From Henriciella sp. (lineage in GTDB: Bacteria; Pseudomonadota; Alphaproteobacteria; Caulobacterales; Hyphomonadaceae): a stretch of DNA of 34,645 nucleotides. Location: NCBI GenBank assembly GCA_027019605.1, contig JALUWJ010000252.1, positions 1 to 34,645 of the forward strand, read 5' to 3'. The position numbers and the translations under genes are program-made. This document shows positions 30,231 through 33,983 of the stretch, piece by piece. The notes under the pieces were generated by a model. It had not been told where the DNA came from, did no database searches, and saw only the letters and a program-made list of their open reading frames with translations. How positions within the stretch are numbered: position 1 is the first letter of the stretch; each line of letters starts with the position of its first letter.

Positions 30231-30497
30231 ATGACGCAGAACACGCAATCTTTGAGCGTGCGCGGCCCAGACGGTCGCCCGCTCACTCTTTCAGACCTAC
30301 CAAAGCCAGGCATCACACGCTGGGTCACTCGCCGCAAAGCGGAAGTCGTCGCAGCTGTCTCTGGCGGCCTCTTGTCAGAAGAAGACGCCCTTCGCCGGTA
30401 TGACCTCAGCGAAGAAGAGTTTTCTGGCTGGCGCGCACTGTACTCTAAGCATGGCCGCAAAGGCCTGCGCACGACGCGCGTACAACAATACCGGTAA
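30231..30497 (+). CDS. sciP: SciP-type DUF1153 regulator, CtrA inhibitor
   Basis: The 88-residue protein matches Caulobacter SciP, a small helix-turn-helix protein that represses CtrA-activated genes in new swarmer cells. Key stretches are 'RGPDGRPLTLSDLP' (11-24), 'RWVTRRKAEVVAAVSGGLLS' (30-49), 'ALRRYDLSEEEFSGW' (53-67) and the C-terminal 'GLRTTRVQQYR' (78-88). The ATG at 30231 has GGTGGA just upstream; an in-frame TTG five codons earlier is less likely. As in Caulobacter, where sciP lies just upstream of fliF, it is directly followed by the fliF-fliG type operon. This supports the genome being of that order and the locus being syntenic. Confidence 0.93.
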   Translation: MTQNTQSLSVRGPDGRPLTLSDLPKPGITRWVTRRKAEVVAAVSGGLLSEEDALRRYDLSEEEFSGWRALYSKHGRKGLRTTRVQQYR

Positions 30498-30504
30498 ACC
30501 GACA

Positions 30505-30527
30505 AACAAGGGGATTACCCCCTTGTT
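30505..30527 (+). repeat. Hairpin between sciP and the short fliF
   Basis: AACAAGGGG (30505-30513), loop ATTAC, then CCCCTTGTT (30519-30527) form a perfect 9-bp stem seven bases after the sciP stop. No T-run follows, so it is either an imperfect terminator or an RNA-stability or leader element for the downstream operon. Confidence 0.6.
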
Positions 30528-30600: not shown

Positions 30601-31242
30601 ATGCGCGCAAAAGACAGAACGCCCACAACGCGTCTTTTGGCCCTCGCTGCGTTTGTACTCGCAGCGGGGCTTTTGTCGCTGCGCGCCTTTGATCTGTTCG
30701 GCACCCCGGAAACAGAGCCAGTTGGCGGCGCGGCCGAGCGCGAACTCACCTATTTGTTGGAGCCAATCACCGGCGAAGACCGCATTCGCGTCTCCGTGAC
30801 CGGGCACAGCCCGAAATCGGTCTTGGTGATGATTGATGGCGAGATGGGCAGCGACCTGCGCACAGTGCGCACCCAAATTGAAAACATCCTGGTTGCATCG
30901 ATCGGCTTTGATTTAGAGACCGACACACTGACCTTGTCGCAATTCCCATTCGCGCGCGGTGTCGGTGCGAGCCTGACACCATTTGAGATTGCAGAGCTGA
31001 CAGGTCTCGGACTGCTTGCCCTTATTCTGCTTGGCGCGGCGTTTGCGCCGAGCGCGGCACCGGCCCCTGCACCGCCAGTGCGCCCTCAAGATCGCCCAAT
31101 TGAAGCGACCCGTCAGGCGCGTCCAACGCCGCAAGTGCTCGAACCCAATCAAGATTTAGACGCCGCGACCACACTTGCGGAAACCCAACCGAGCCAGACT
31201 GCAAACCTGGTTCGCGATTGGATGTCCTATCGGGAGGAATAG
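30601..31242 (+). CDS. fliF: Very short FliF (flagellar MS-ring) homologue
   Basis: The 213-residue protein has a membrane helix (11-30) and a compact domain (45-119). Its 'ERELTYLLEPITGEDRIRVS' and 'QIENILVASIGFDLETDTLT' resemble the two halves of the FliF RBM3 domain. A second helix (131-150), an Ala/Pro linker and a C-terminal 'ANLVRDWMSY' (201-210), like the FliG-binding tail, follow. Full FliF is about 530-570 residues; there is no space for RBM1, RBM2 or the beta-collar. A GAGGG site lies eight bases before the ATG, and no coding remnant lies upstream, so it is not a broken gene. fliG starts right after its stop. Identity rests on domain resemblance plus synteny with the Caulobacter sciP-fliF-fliG locus. 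Confidence 0.65.
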   Translation: MRAKDRTPTTRLLALAAFVLAAGLLSLRAFDLFGTPETEPVGGAAERELTYLLEPITGEDRIRVSVTGHSPKSVLVMIDGEMGSDLRTVRTQIENILVASIGFDLETDTLTLSQFPFARGVGASLTPFEIAELTGLGLLALILLGAAFAPSAAPAPAPPVRPQDRPIEATRQARPTPQVLEPNQDLDAATTLAETQPSQTANLVRDWMSYREE

Positions 31243-32172
31243 ATGAGCTTACCTGCCCTTTCTCCCCAGCTCGACCGCGAGGACGGTCTAACCCGCAGCG
31301 CTCTATTGATGCGCGCTCTGGGTGCAAAGGCGGCTTCGGTTTGGTCAGAGCTATCGCCGCAAGAAGCAGAACAACTCTCCGCTGCGATGCAGGCCTTACC
31401 GGAAGATGCTCAAGCGGAGCAAAGCGCCTTAAATTCCTACGTTCAGACGATGCGGCAATCGCCCGCGAAACAAACGCTTAGACCGGCTAGCTTTTGGGCG
31501 AGACTGTCTCAGCAAGACGGCACGCTGATTGCCAGCCTGATCCAAGACGAAAGCCCGCAAGTGATCGCGCTGATCCTGTCGCGCCTGGCGCCAGATGCAG
31601 CAGCGAACACGGTGCGTGCTCTGCCGCGGACGTTGGCGACGGATGCGCTGAAGCGTTTGCTTAATCTAGGCGACGTTCATCCCGCGGCTCTGCGCGCGAT
31701 TGAGATGGCTTTGGACAACAGCCTGACCCAGCGCAATTCCGGCAAACTCTCTGGTGGGCATGAACATGTGGCCCGGATCTTTGACAGCCTGGACAGCGGC
31801 TCGGAAAGCACGCTCCTGTCTTCCCTGGACAGCGCCGAACCTGGCGCCGGCGAGAAAATCCGCGCTCTCATGTTTACATTTGAGGACCTGGCGGCGCTCG
31901 ATCCCGGCAGCCTGCAAACCATTCTCGGCAGTGTCGATCGCGCCGTGCTCACCGTTGCCCTGAAAGGCGCATCACCGACCGTGTCTGAGGCCTTCTTCAA
32001 GAATGTCACGCAGCGCGCGGCGGAGCTTCTGCGAGAAGACATCGCCGCCATCGGCCCTGTCCGGCGCAGCGAGATAGACGCGGCCCGCGCCGAGGTCCTG
32101 CAAGTGGCCCGCGCGCTGGTGAAACGCGGCGACCTGCTGCCGCAAAACCAAGATGATGAGCTGATCGAATGA
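31243..32172 (+). CDS. fliG: Flagellar motor switch protein FliG
   Basis: FliG couples the MS-ring to the C-ring and receives torque from the stator. The 309-residue protein has a weakly conserved N-domain (about 18-75), a middle domain (about 85-160) with 'LIQDESPQVIALILSRL', where the usual EHPQ is ESPQ (103-106), and a well-conserved C-domain (175-300). Residues corresponding to the E. coli torque-helix charges are kept: K241, R258, E265, D266 and R274. 'FTFEDLAALDPGSLQTILG' and 'LTVALKGA' are typical. Slightly shorter than usual (about 330-340). Its ATG follows the short fliF stop directly and has GGAGG upstream; it overlaps the next gene as ATGA. Confidence 0.88.
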   Translation: MSLPALSPQLDREDGLTRSALLMRALGAKAASVWSELSPQEAEQLSAAMQALPEDAQAEQSALNSYVQTMRQSPAKQTLRPASFWARLSQQDGTLIASLIQDESPQVIALILSRLAPDAAANTVRALPRTLATDALKRLLNLGDVHPAALRAIEMALDNSLTQRNSGKLSGGHEHVARIFDSLDSGSESTLLSSLDSAEPGAGEKIRALMFTFEDLAALDPGSLQTILGSVDRAVLTVALKGASPTVSEAFFKNVTQRAAELLREDIAAIGPVRRSEIDAARAEVLQVARALVKRGDLLPQNQDDELIE

Positions 32173-32519
32173 AACGGCGGGTCGAGTCCTTAACCCCCTA
32201 CCCGTTCGCCAGCGACTTCAGCGCGCCGGACGGCAGGACGCGCGATACGGTTCAGATGACAACCGAAGAACTGGCTCTTCTTCTGTCGGACGCACAGGCC
32301 AGTGGCGCCTCTATTGCCCGAAACGATACGCTCGCCGAGCAAGCTGATAAGCTCTCGCAGGCCTCAGCAGACCTCAAACAAGTATTGGCCAGCATTGTTG
32401 ACCTGGCCGCGCATTTGGAAACCGCAGCGATAGATGAAAGCGACCGCGCCGATGCCCTCGACCGTGTGCGCCGCCTGGCCGCAGTTGTGATTGAAGGCCA
32501 AGCTGACTTATTTTCGTGA
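32169..32519 (+). CDS. Short FlbE/FliH-like flagellar protein
   Basis: The 116-residue protein sits where Caulobacter has flbE, the FliH-like export regulator. The N-terminal 'SLTPYPFASDFSAPDG' recalls the FliH/FlbE start. Two helical segments follow, with 'TTEELALLLSDAQASGASIA' and a coiled-coil-like 'LSQASADLKQVLASIVDLAA'. The C-terminal domain that would bind the FliI ATPase is not evident, and the length is well below the 200 or so residues expected. It overlaps fliG by 4 bp. Identity rests mainly on position; confidence in the family is moderate. Confidence 0.5.
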   Translation: MKRRVESLTPYPFASDFSAPDGRTRDTVQMTTEELALLLSDAQASGASIARNDTLAEQADKLSQASADLKQVLASIVDLAAHLETAAIDESDRADALDRVRRLAAVVIEGQADLFS

Positions 32520-32597: not shown

Positions 32598-32864
32598 ATG
32601 ACCGTAAATCGCGCCCTCGAAGACTCCCTGATGGATGCCCCTGTAAAAGTGGATGTGGTCCTCGGCGAAGCGAGAATGCCGATGGAAGAGCTGATGGGCC
32701 TGTCTGAAGGCGAGATTGTCGAGCTTGAAAACCAGACCACCGATCTGGTCGATATCTATGTCTCTGACCGCCTGATGGCCCGTGGTCGCCTGGTCGTTGC
32801 AGACGGCCAGCTCGGCGTCACCTTGAGCGAAATTGTCGACAGCCGCTCGCCGAGCTTTGCCTAA
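32598..32864 (+). CDS. fliN: Flagellar motor switch protein FliN
   Basis: FliN forms the base of the C-ring with FliM. The 88-residue protein is almost only the SpoA domain: 'APVKVDVVLGEARMPMEELM' (14-33), 'LSEGEIVELENQTTDLVDIY' (35-54) and 'ARGRLVVADGQLGVTLSEIV' (61-80). The N-terminal extension found in longer FliN proteins is missing. It follows the FlbE-like gene after 78 bp and probably shares its transcript. No flbD or flhA gene follows, unlike the Caulobacter order; the next gene is convergent, five bases away. Confidence 0.9.
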   Translation: MTVNRALEDSLMDAPVKVDVVLGEARMPMEELMGLSEGEIVELENQTTDLVDIYVSDRLMARGRLVVADGQLGVTLSEIVDSRSPSFA

Positions 32865-32869
32865 GTCTC

Positions 32870-33868
32870 TTATTCCAAACCTTGCATCGCTTGGATTTTC
32901 TGTTCCGTACCGCGGACAGTTTTTTCGCATGTCGACCAGGCGGCGCGAACCGTCGCGACCAAGGCCAGGCTGGTGGTGAAACCGGCCAGGATGAGAAGTC
33001 CTATGCCCAGATAGAGCGCAAACGGGCCCGCCTGATCTGAGATCCGCACAAAACCGGCAGCGACCGTCGCCACAGGAAATGTCGTCGCCCACCAACTGAG
33101 CGTAATCCCGGCTTTGCCGATAAAGTTCAACTGCAAGACCAGCAGCGCAATAAAAAACGCGCCGCCGCTCAAAAGCAGAAATGGCGCTTGCCATGCGAGG
33201 CCCGGAAATAAGGTGAGCAGCGCGCCGGCTGCGAGGCCAAATGGCGCCGCGATGATGAACAGGGTTGGACGTAGTTCAGGCGCAACGGCTGGCTCGAAGA
33301 CCAAGCGACGAAACACCAAAGGCAAGAGCATCAGCCATGCCATGAGGCCTGCACCGAGCGTCAACAATGGAAACTCAACCGGACCAATGCCGGGCCAAGT
33401 CATCGCCGAGGTCATGATCCCAGCAGCTGGCAAGAACCAGGTTGGATTAAGCTCCGACGACGCGTAGTCATGCGTGAGCCATCGACCAATAAATGCCATC
33501 AGCAAAATGAAGTGCAGGATGGACGCGGCCAGCCAAATCGGCGCGCCATTTTCCAGTATCCCGCCGATCACCATCGCCGCCATCAGGCCCGGCGCCAGCA
33601 AGTTCGCGCGGTTCGCCATCGATAAGTCTTCGGCGACCTCGCTGCGATGGCGCAGCAATTTTACGAGATAGAGGACAATATCGATCGCCAGCATGCCGCC
33701 AGCAAGCGCCAGCAAAACCATCCCAATCGAATGGAGCGGCGCGGTGTTGAGTTTGGATGCTGCAATGATTGCGGCAGACGCCAATCCGGCCAATCCAAGC
33801 GCAATCGGAAACAGCGCGGTTGGAATGTGGACCAATAAGTGTCCTGCGCCTTTGATTGAGAGGGCCAT
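32870..33868 (-). CDS. TDT/TehA (SLAC1) family membrane transporter
   Basis: The 332-residue protein has about ten hydrophobic helices, as expected for the tellurite-resistance/dicarboxylate transporter (TDT) family. It has a 'HIPTALFPIALGLAGLA' first helix, and the central 'LNPTWFLPAAGIMTS' matches the family's conserved P-T-W-F/L-P region. TDT proteins move anions or organic acids, or confer tellurite tolerance; the substrate here is unknown. The ATG at 33868 with AAGGCGG five bases upstream is preferred over a TTG at 33928. It converges with fliN and has no obvious partner. Confidence 0.8.
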   Translation of the reverse strand: MALSIKGAGHLLVHIPTALFPIALGLAGLASAAIIAASKLNTAPLHSIGMVLLALAGGMLAIDIVLYLVKLLRHRSEVAEDLSMANRANLLAPGLMAAMVIGGILENGAPIWLAASILHFILLMAFIGRWLTHDYASSELNPTWFLPAAGIMTSAMTWPGIGPVEFPLLTLGAGLMAWLMLLPLVFRRLVFEPAVAPELRPTLFIIAAPFGLAAGALLTLFPGLAWQAPFLLLSGGAFFIALLVLQLNFIGKAGITLSWWATTFPVATVAAGFVRISDQAGPFALYLGIGLLILAGFTTSLALVATVRAAWSTCEKTVRGTEQKIQAMQGLE

Positions 33869-33983
33869 GGCATCCGCCTTACAGAAGCTAGTCGCCTCTT
33901 TGATCGAATAGTCTTGAATTGATGGCAAGGGGAGCGCTCATGCCTGCGCCGCGATGGGAGAGGCACGAGCTTTGATTCAGCCC

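Follow-up and report, generated by a model that had tools for sequence, protein, structure and literature searches.

A shortened FliF and its conserved rotor and stator genes suggest a rotary motor put to another use in marine relatives of Hyphomonas

FliF, the protein of the flagellar MS-ring, with about 550 amino acids, possesses two membrane helices, the domains RBM1, RBM2 and RBM3, the last of which is split by a beta-collar, and a C-terminus that binds FliG. In the Caulobacter-type system, as seen in relatives of the same order, its gene stands in the order DUF1153-fliF-fliG-fliH-fliN. The locus of Henriciella sp. described here displays the same gene order and belongs with related FliG, FliN, FliM and MotA proteins, but its FliF and FliH are cut short, and FlhA of this type is absent from all 73 genomes with the short FliF (73/73). 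This protein of 213 amino acids, in the following referred to as mini-FliF, appears to share with FliF the two membrane helices, RBM3, a FliG-binding-like tail and the position between DUF1153 and fliG, while RBM1, RBM2 and the beta-collar are missing and the genome holds no FlhA of the type that belongs to its own system.

Motors resembling MotAB also occur outside flagella, e.g. in AglRQS gliding and in ZorAB, where a proton-channel stator works without a flagellum. These motors are not known to possess FliG, FliM, FliN or FliF. The use of a stator without a flagellum is common to them and to the gene set treated here, which differs from them by its rotor proteins FliG, FliM, FliN and FliF. 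A second point of comparison is Caulobacter, where C-ring and stator, along with FssF and the Cle proteins, are reported to take part in surface sensing and adhesion (PMC11580411, PMC5677366). The C-ring, the stator and the FliM switch as a signalling device would be common to both cases; in Caulobacter, however, they are part of a working flagellum, whereas here they are apparently separate from one and a signalling role is what we infer.

No description of a short FliF or of a flagellum-free motor in these genera was found in the literature covered, in which subscription journals are mostly missing and many sources are present in part only. The accessible text of PMC12199754 raises the general question, that of PMC12700997 treats the loss of the flagellum in Caulobacteraceae, and what is available of PMC11870540, PMC13023049 and PMC9927559 mentions neither a short FliF nor such a motor. 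A hat-like structure of the inner membrane, present also in Hyphomonas neptunium, is reported in the available part of PMC9380563; the hat is not FliF, and no link is drawn. An earlier reading made from the sequence alone (the sequence-only reading) had named, as one of the outcomes that would speak against its proposal, that the short form is an already described family norm. The short form is indeed the norm in these genera, but no published description of it was found in the sources covered.

Gene order and the mini-FliF protein

The analysed stretch of DNA (the window, 34,645 nucleotides) is a whole contig. Its relevant features are as follows.

30231..30497, forward strand: gene of a DUF1153 protein at the SciP position (PF06627, E 2.8e-36; ATG start)
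30505..30527, forward strand: strong hairpin in the gap that separates the DUF1153 gene from mini-fliF, lacking a U run (-20 kcal/mol, z -4.3 for the segment 30490-30545)
30601..31242, forward strand: mini-fliF, open reading frame of 213 amino acids with ATG start
30625..30699, forward strand: predicted first membrane helix of mini-FliF, residues 9-33 (AlphaFold model and hydropathy)
30730..30945, forward strand: predicted RBM3 domain without beta-collar, residues 44-115 (AlphaFold, Foldseek, profile alignment with collar cuts)
30979..31044, forward strand: predicted second membrane helix, residues 127-148 (AlphaFold model and hydropathy)
31150..31236, forward strand: two-helix tail resembling the FliG-binding C-terminus of FliF, residues 184-212 (AlphaFold and profile matches)
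31243..32172, forward strand: fliG of the mini set, 309 amino acids (FliG_N, FliG_M and FliG_C over cut-off; alignment to solved FliG)
32169..32519, forward strand: mini-fliH, 116 amino acids, N-terminal half of FliH (hhalign against FliH of relatives)
32598..32864, forward strand: fliN, 88 amino acids (FliMN_C, E 1.4e-21)
32870-33928, reverse strand: SLAC1-type anion channel gene following fliN (Pfam)

Between the end of the DUF1153 gene at the SciP position (30497) and the start of mini-fliF (30601) there is no space for a notable coding remnant, in agreement with what had been read from the sequence. Among the downstream genes, FliG carries all three FliG domains over cut-off (Pfam, window copy), and its match to NCBIfam TIGR00207 (175.4 bits) lies below the cut-off of 226.7. 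The SLAC1-type gene stands where most relatives continue to an FlhF-like gene. The window ends before the point at which FlhF-like, MinD-type and CtrA genes might follow, and other genes lie 3' of its fliN.

Two hydrophobic peaks (Kyte-Doolittle, residues 12-30 and 130-148) characterise mini-FliF, and two hydrophobic helices were likewise found in 26 of 29 relatives; the copy of G009 has one, that of G032 none at the threshold, and that of G036 is cut by a contig end. An AlphaFold model built on an alignment of 27 of the 29 sequences (A1; G036 and G024 left out), with a mean pLDDT of 79 and a pTM of 0.49, shows a helix (9-33), an alpha-beta-beta-alpha-beta domain (44-115), a second helix (127-148), a disordered linker and two terminal helices (184-195 and 197-212). 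In a Foldseek search with this model EscJ (1yj7) ranked first, PrgK domain 2 (4oyc) fourth and FliF (6scn) sixth, none with an E-value below 1e-3, and ribosomal S3 (KH-like) folds scored about as well as FliF, so that the fold search by itself is weak. The structural comparison with RBM3 that had been called for thus places EscJ, PrgK and FliF among the top matches but does not set FliF apart from S3.

Profile comparisons settle the matter. Against the PDB, the top four matches of the mini-FliF family profile are FliF M-ring sequences (E 3.2e-5 to 1.3e-3), aligned chiefly at the C-terminus, and when compared with A3, an alignment of 19 full-length FliF from the same order, the profile reaches a Prob of 97.2 and an E-value of 3.7e-11. 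When the collar columns were cut from A3, in four slightly varying ways, the E-value improved from 8e-11 to 2.4-3.6e-14, the aligned columns increased from 125 to 166 and the alignment start moved from residue 87 to residue 46. Controls in which as many columns were removed at one of four other positions gave 4.2e-11, 4.7e-11, 5.5e-11 and 1.7e-7, with at most 125 columns. Since the match lengthens and improves on removal of the collar columns and does not lengthen with the control cuts, the domain is an RBM3 from which the collar has been removed. As a single sequence mini-FliF is far less conspicuous: Pfam yields only a sub-threshold YscJ_FliF_C match (E 0.051), the search of NCBIfam yields no match, and PF01514 (YscJ_FliF, covering RBM1-RBM2) does not match the frame. 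Judged by profile and model, mini-FliF is therefore an RBM3 without collar, lying between two membrane helices and followed by a tail, from which RBM1, RBM2 and the collar are gone. The sequence-only reading had seen two membrane helices, one compact RBM3-like domain and a FliG-binding-like tail: hydropathy and model bear out the first, the collar cuts the second, and the PDB profile matches at the C-terminus lend the tail a likeness to FliF in sequence and model.

A sequencing error or pseudogene was rejected as the cause of the short frame, given homologues of similar length in 73 genomes. An even shorter form occurs in G024 (L034, L111), where a micro-FliF of 126 amino acids consists of two hydrophobic stretches close together and a tail, without an RBM domain; such a series points to selection for keeping FliG at the membrane. 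In G071 (L235, L180), body and tail of mini-FliF lie in two frames, owing to a frameshift or a sequencing error.

Origin of the locus and the separate flagellar system

The position of mini-fliF is that of a complete fliF in relatives. A full-length fliF (536-593 amino acids) lies downstream of DUF1153 in 17 of the 30 FliF loci examined, within about 260 bases in 16 of them (about 1.2 kb in G039), and this arrangement extends to four other genera of the same family (G030, G031, G033, G034). The proposal that FliF was reduced in place at the Caulobacter fliF position is strengthened by these loci, and the profile alignment shows which parts were lost. A similar loss concerns the gene after fliG, which encodes 207-225 amino acids in 18 such relatives with a full-length fliF (18 of 19 kept; in G030 the wrong frame had been taken). 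The 116-residue frame of the window, to which Pfam assigns no family, aligns together with its relatives only with the N-terminal half of full FliH (Prob 94.5, E 7.4e-8), hence our name mini-FliH. In FliH, the C-terminal half binds the export ATPase; this half is missing from mini-FliH.

The FliG proteins of the mini set form one clade of 28 (support 94/99), in a tree with a very long outgroup branch that calls for caution about long-branch effects, and the divergent MotA (MotA2) forms one clade of 12 (support 100/100). At the level of sequence, the locus is a remnant of an older flagellar system, 'fla1', of the DUF1153-fliF-fliG-fliH-fliN type; that stator and C-ring were kept as a non-flagellar motor without export or filament is more likely than not.

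The window's own genome (G000, a draft of 84% completeness in 327 contigs) also possesses a complete system. Its contig C154 encodes a full FliF of 513 amino acids (TIGR00206 over cut-off) together with fliL, a FliH-like gene, fliN, fliP, a second FliG, flgI, flgL, flgK, flgE and motB (several of these names were read from translations); PF01514 matches in G000 on C154 only, and the genome holds one FlhA. A search for a second fliF and for flhA, fliP and motB, recommended at the outset, is thereby answered in the affirmative, and mini-FliF was rejected as the flagellar FliF of this organism because of the full FliF on C154. A separate full FliF is present in 25 of the 29 mini-FliF genomes of a 61-genome set, and therefore the short form is not what the normal flagellum uses. 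Swimming, if any, would be due to this second system with its own FliF, FliG, FliN, FlhA, MotA and MotB. In line with this are data on H. neptunium, for which the available part of PMC7200025 uses a fliL mutant as non-motile control and describes a motility island.

Distribution and companion genes

Open mini-FliF frames of less than 300 amino acids occur in 73 of 105 genomes of the family (78 matches, from which five proved to be the C-terminus of a full FliF: G108, G110, G111, G118, G125). Of these, 26 belong to the window's genus, 41 to genus g5, three to g8, two to g2 and one to g9. The 61-genome set yielded 31 matches, and 29 were kept after removal of two with an internal stop, G034 (51 residues) and G055. 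Among 80 loci from named records, 47 (L132-L178) display an upstream frame of 213-241 amino acids with the tail, eight a full FliF with the tail, and 25 (including L180) were unreadable by the script. Some of the cassette-bearing records name no more than Alphaproteobacteria or Rhodobacterales in their titles, but most name Henriciella, Hyphomonas or Hyphomonadaceae; H. jannaschiana and H. polymorpha are among the carriers, and the record nearest to the window is Henriciella sp. DT_47 (88% in FliG). Two of the cassette-bearing records, L149 and L167, are titled Candidatus Sulfopaludibacter and uncultured Acidobacteria, which is unlikely for both; the title of L149 looks wrong. A search of plasmids returned generic FliG only.

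The cassette itself encodes mini-FliF, FliG, the half-length FliH and FliN, and the set is completed by a divergent FliM (FliM2), MotA (MotA2) and MotB (MotB2) elsewhere in the genome. All 29 mini-FliF genomes of the 61-genome set encode a divergent MotA (65-91 bits), and of the 32 others only G011 and G027 do so. Similarly, a divergent MotB (39-59 bits) accompanies mini-FliF in 28 of 29 genomes, the exception being G024, in which no MotB was found; MotB of this score range also occurs without mini-FliF in G011, G027 and G048, and matches of about 60 bits (below 61) in G040 and G052. MotA2 and MotB2 show the MotA_N and MotA_ExbB domains, the MotB plug, the OmpA domain (present in the G000 copy of MotB2) and the channel aspartate and prolines: both prolines are kept in 12 of 12 MotA2, and the YAD aspartate in all ten MotB2 copies read. 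A stator match to TIGR03818 (290.2 bits) lies just below the cut-off of 303.8. Zorya defence was considered and rejected, as PADLOC matched only MotB2 (ZorB models), while mini-FliF, FliG and MotA2 remained without a match.

FliM2 is very divergent. Its gene adjoins dksA in 15 of the 16 loci read (exception G035), and its profile aligns with FliM of relatives over nearly the full length (Prob 97.4). The N-terminal switch motif (EI.ALLRP, kept in 16 of 16), the middle domain and the FliN-like C-terminus of FliM can all be recognised. Pfam reported only FliMN_C on FliM2, and a PDB search with one FliM2 sequence gave no match. The structural model (mean pLDDT 67) is poor in its C-terminal part and confident only in the middle, and matches FliM in solved C-rings (E 4.7e-13) as well as FliM middle domains.

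In 28 FliG sequences the charges of the torque helix are mostly kept and the characters of FliG are present. The position of K264 is Lys in 27, that of R281 Arg in all 28, and that of D289 acidic in all 28; at the R297 position 22 sequences carry Arg, five Lys and one Thr. The D288 position is relaxed: ten sequences have an acidic residue there, 17 have Ser, Ala or Thr, and one has Arg. The Glu and Pro that contact FliM are kept in 28 of 28, and the FliG of G024 deviates at K264, D288 and R297. In E. coli, MotA R90 contacts D288-D289 of FliG and E98 contacts R281, according to the accessible part of PMC12505986. The R90/E98-type pattern was found in nine of 12 MotA2 and in none of 19 rows of flagellar MotA, and is thus uninformative here.

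Values of dN/dS lie between 0.02 and 0.20 in 12 of 15 pairs of set genes; the three others, all from distant pairs of genomes apparently without a flagellum, are 0.39 (mini-FliF), 0.21 (FliG) and one saturated value, and since many dS values exceed 1 all these ratios are rough. For mini-FliF alone the range is 0.08-0.20 in four pairs besides the distant 0.39, and a comparison between G061 and G062 gave 0.20 for mini-FliF, 0.14 for FliG and 0.05 for FliN. As judged from these ratios, FliG, FliN and the divergent FliM, MotA and MotB are retained under purifying selection.

Downstream of the cassette, many loci of Henriciella and Hyphomonas encode an FlhF-like GTPase (71.7 bits to TIGR03499, where the cut-off is 174), a MinD-type ATPase and CtrA; in five genomes (G061, G062, G090, G102 and G113) no FlhF gene was found next to the cassette. 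According to PMC11236974, FlhF binds to FliG, whereupon FliG engages FliF, and FliG with FliM-FliN is under the control of FlhG.

FlhA, the export gate, was found in 92 of the 105 genomes. Not one of the 73 mini-FliF genomes has an FlhA above 706.9 bits, i.e. a gate of the set's own lineage, as a flagellum of its own would have, is missing from them. By comparison, 25 of the 28 FlhA-bearing genomes without mini-FliF score at least 779; in G122 and G127 nothing but fragments matched, and the FlhA of G095 (74% complete) is of the 701-bit type. FlhA was not found in 13 genomes, nine of which, from four genera, carry mini-FliF (G006, G013, G023, G024, G061, G062, G090, G102, G113); the others are G007, G011, G027 and G029. 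The frames of DUF1153, mini-FliF, FliG, mini-FliH and FliN are open in nine of these nine. A full FliF was not found in any of the four tested, and in three of them (G006, G013, G023; metagenome-assembled, 95, 100 and 99% complete) neither FlhA nor a full FliF, a second FliG or a stator protein of the flagellar type (MotA, MotB) was found, while mini-FliF, FliG, MotA2, MotB2 and two FliM/N matches each are kept. For FliM in these three genomes the count of two matches is meant, with the place of only one given, and the whole set is complete there by family counts. The searches for stators and full FliF covered the 61-genome set, outside of which lie G061, G062, G090 (99% complete), G102 and G113. 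The nine genomes probably have no flagellum at all. Two FlhA-less genomes deserve a separate mention: G007 (L125) has lost mini-FliF, FliG and mini-FliH and keeps FliN-FlhF-MinD-type-CtrA in place plus a second FliM/N match, and G027 (L113, L120) keeps MotA2, MotB2 and one FliM/N match, with no FliG or mini-FliF found.

Candidate function and alternatives

The proposal of a rotor-derived complex with a non-flagellar role gains support from the missing FlhA in nine of 73 mini-FliF genomes and the missing full FliF in the four tested. In such a complex, mini-FliF would be the inner-membrane anchor of a C-ring made of FliG, FliM and FliN, and MotA2B2, attached to the peptidoglycan, would drive or load this ring with protons. 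The FlhF-like GTPase and the MinD-type ATPase encoded beside the cassette in many genomes could place it at the pole. Because export and filament are missing, the motor could not propel the cell. Its likeliest output would be signalling: located at a pole, it would sense load or contact with a surface and pass the signal on to adhesion or to the control of the cell cycle. This is our first choice because stator and C-ring of Caulobacter are reported to act in surface sensing and adhesion; taken by itself, this particular output is doubtful. We also tentatively propose a dedicated non-flagellar rotary motor in which MotA2B2 would turn a polar FliG-FliM-FliN ring on a minimal FliF anchor, and which would have outlived the flagellum in several lineages, including the one whose anchor is a membrane hairpin plus tail.

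Several other explanations have to be weighed against a retained motor. An unlikely one, though the least so among them, holds that the complex is a polar scaffold that no longer rotates, in which the C-ring remnant, FlhF and the MinD-type ATPase mark the pole or organise signalling or cell-cycle proteins, and MotA2B2 has an unrelated job. This would suit the FlhF-like and MinD-type genes and ctrA that follow the cassette in many genomes, the relaxed D288 of FliG, and G007, which keeps FliN, FlhF and the MinD-type gene while no FliG or stators were found in it. Yet all 29 mini-FliF genomes have a divergent MotA and 28 of them a divergent MotB, with channel prolines and proton-binding aspartate kept, and the R281 and K264 positions of FliG are kept as well. 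It is more improbable that the set is an accessory of the second flagellum, e.g. spare C-ring parts or a second stator for flagellated species. The presence of the second system in 25 of 29 mini-FliF genomes would allow this, but that system has its own FliF, FliG and FliN, and the set persists where FlhA was not found (9/73), four of these genomes, as tested, lacking full FliF, second FliG and flagellar MotAB, too.

Decay without any function is very improbable. The truncation of FliF and FliH, the piecemeal loss in G007 and G027, the micro-FliF of G024 and the frame problem of G071 are what a relic would display; against it stand the retention in 73 of 105 genomes and five genera, the low dN/dS (0.02-0.20 in 12 of 15 pairs) and the unlinked FliM2, MotA2 and MotB2, which are retained along with the cassette. 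Finally, the genomes without a flagellum could be artefacts of draft assembly and then would prove no independence from it, given that they include metagenome-assembled genomes and that a motility island can fall out of a bin. There are nine such genomes in four genera, however, G013, G023 and G090 among them being 100, 99 and 99% complete, and what was not found in them comprises FlhA together with, as far as tested, the second system's full FliF, FliG, MotA and MotB. This explanation is the least probable.

The retained motor accordingly stays our preferred reading, and the observations suggest that a rotary motor has been put to another use in marine relatives of Hyphomonas, some of them apparently without any flagellum. 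Hyphomonas and Henriciella, of which some species are cultured, would thus harbour a coherent and conserved half-motor, in which the missing parts seen so far are those of export and propulsion and the kept parts are those of torque. It also illustrates how small a part of FliF is preserved by selection where FliG, perhaps, need only be held at the membrane.
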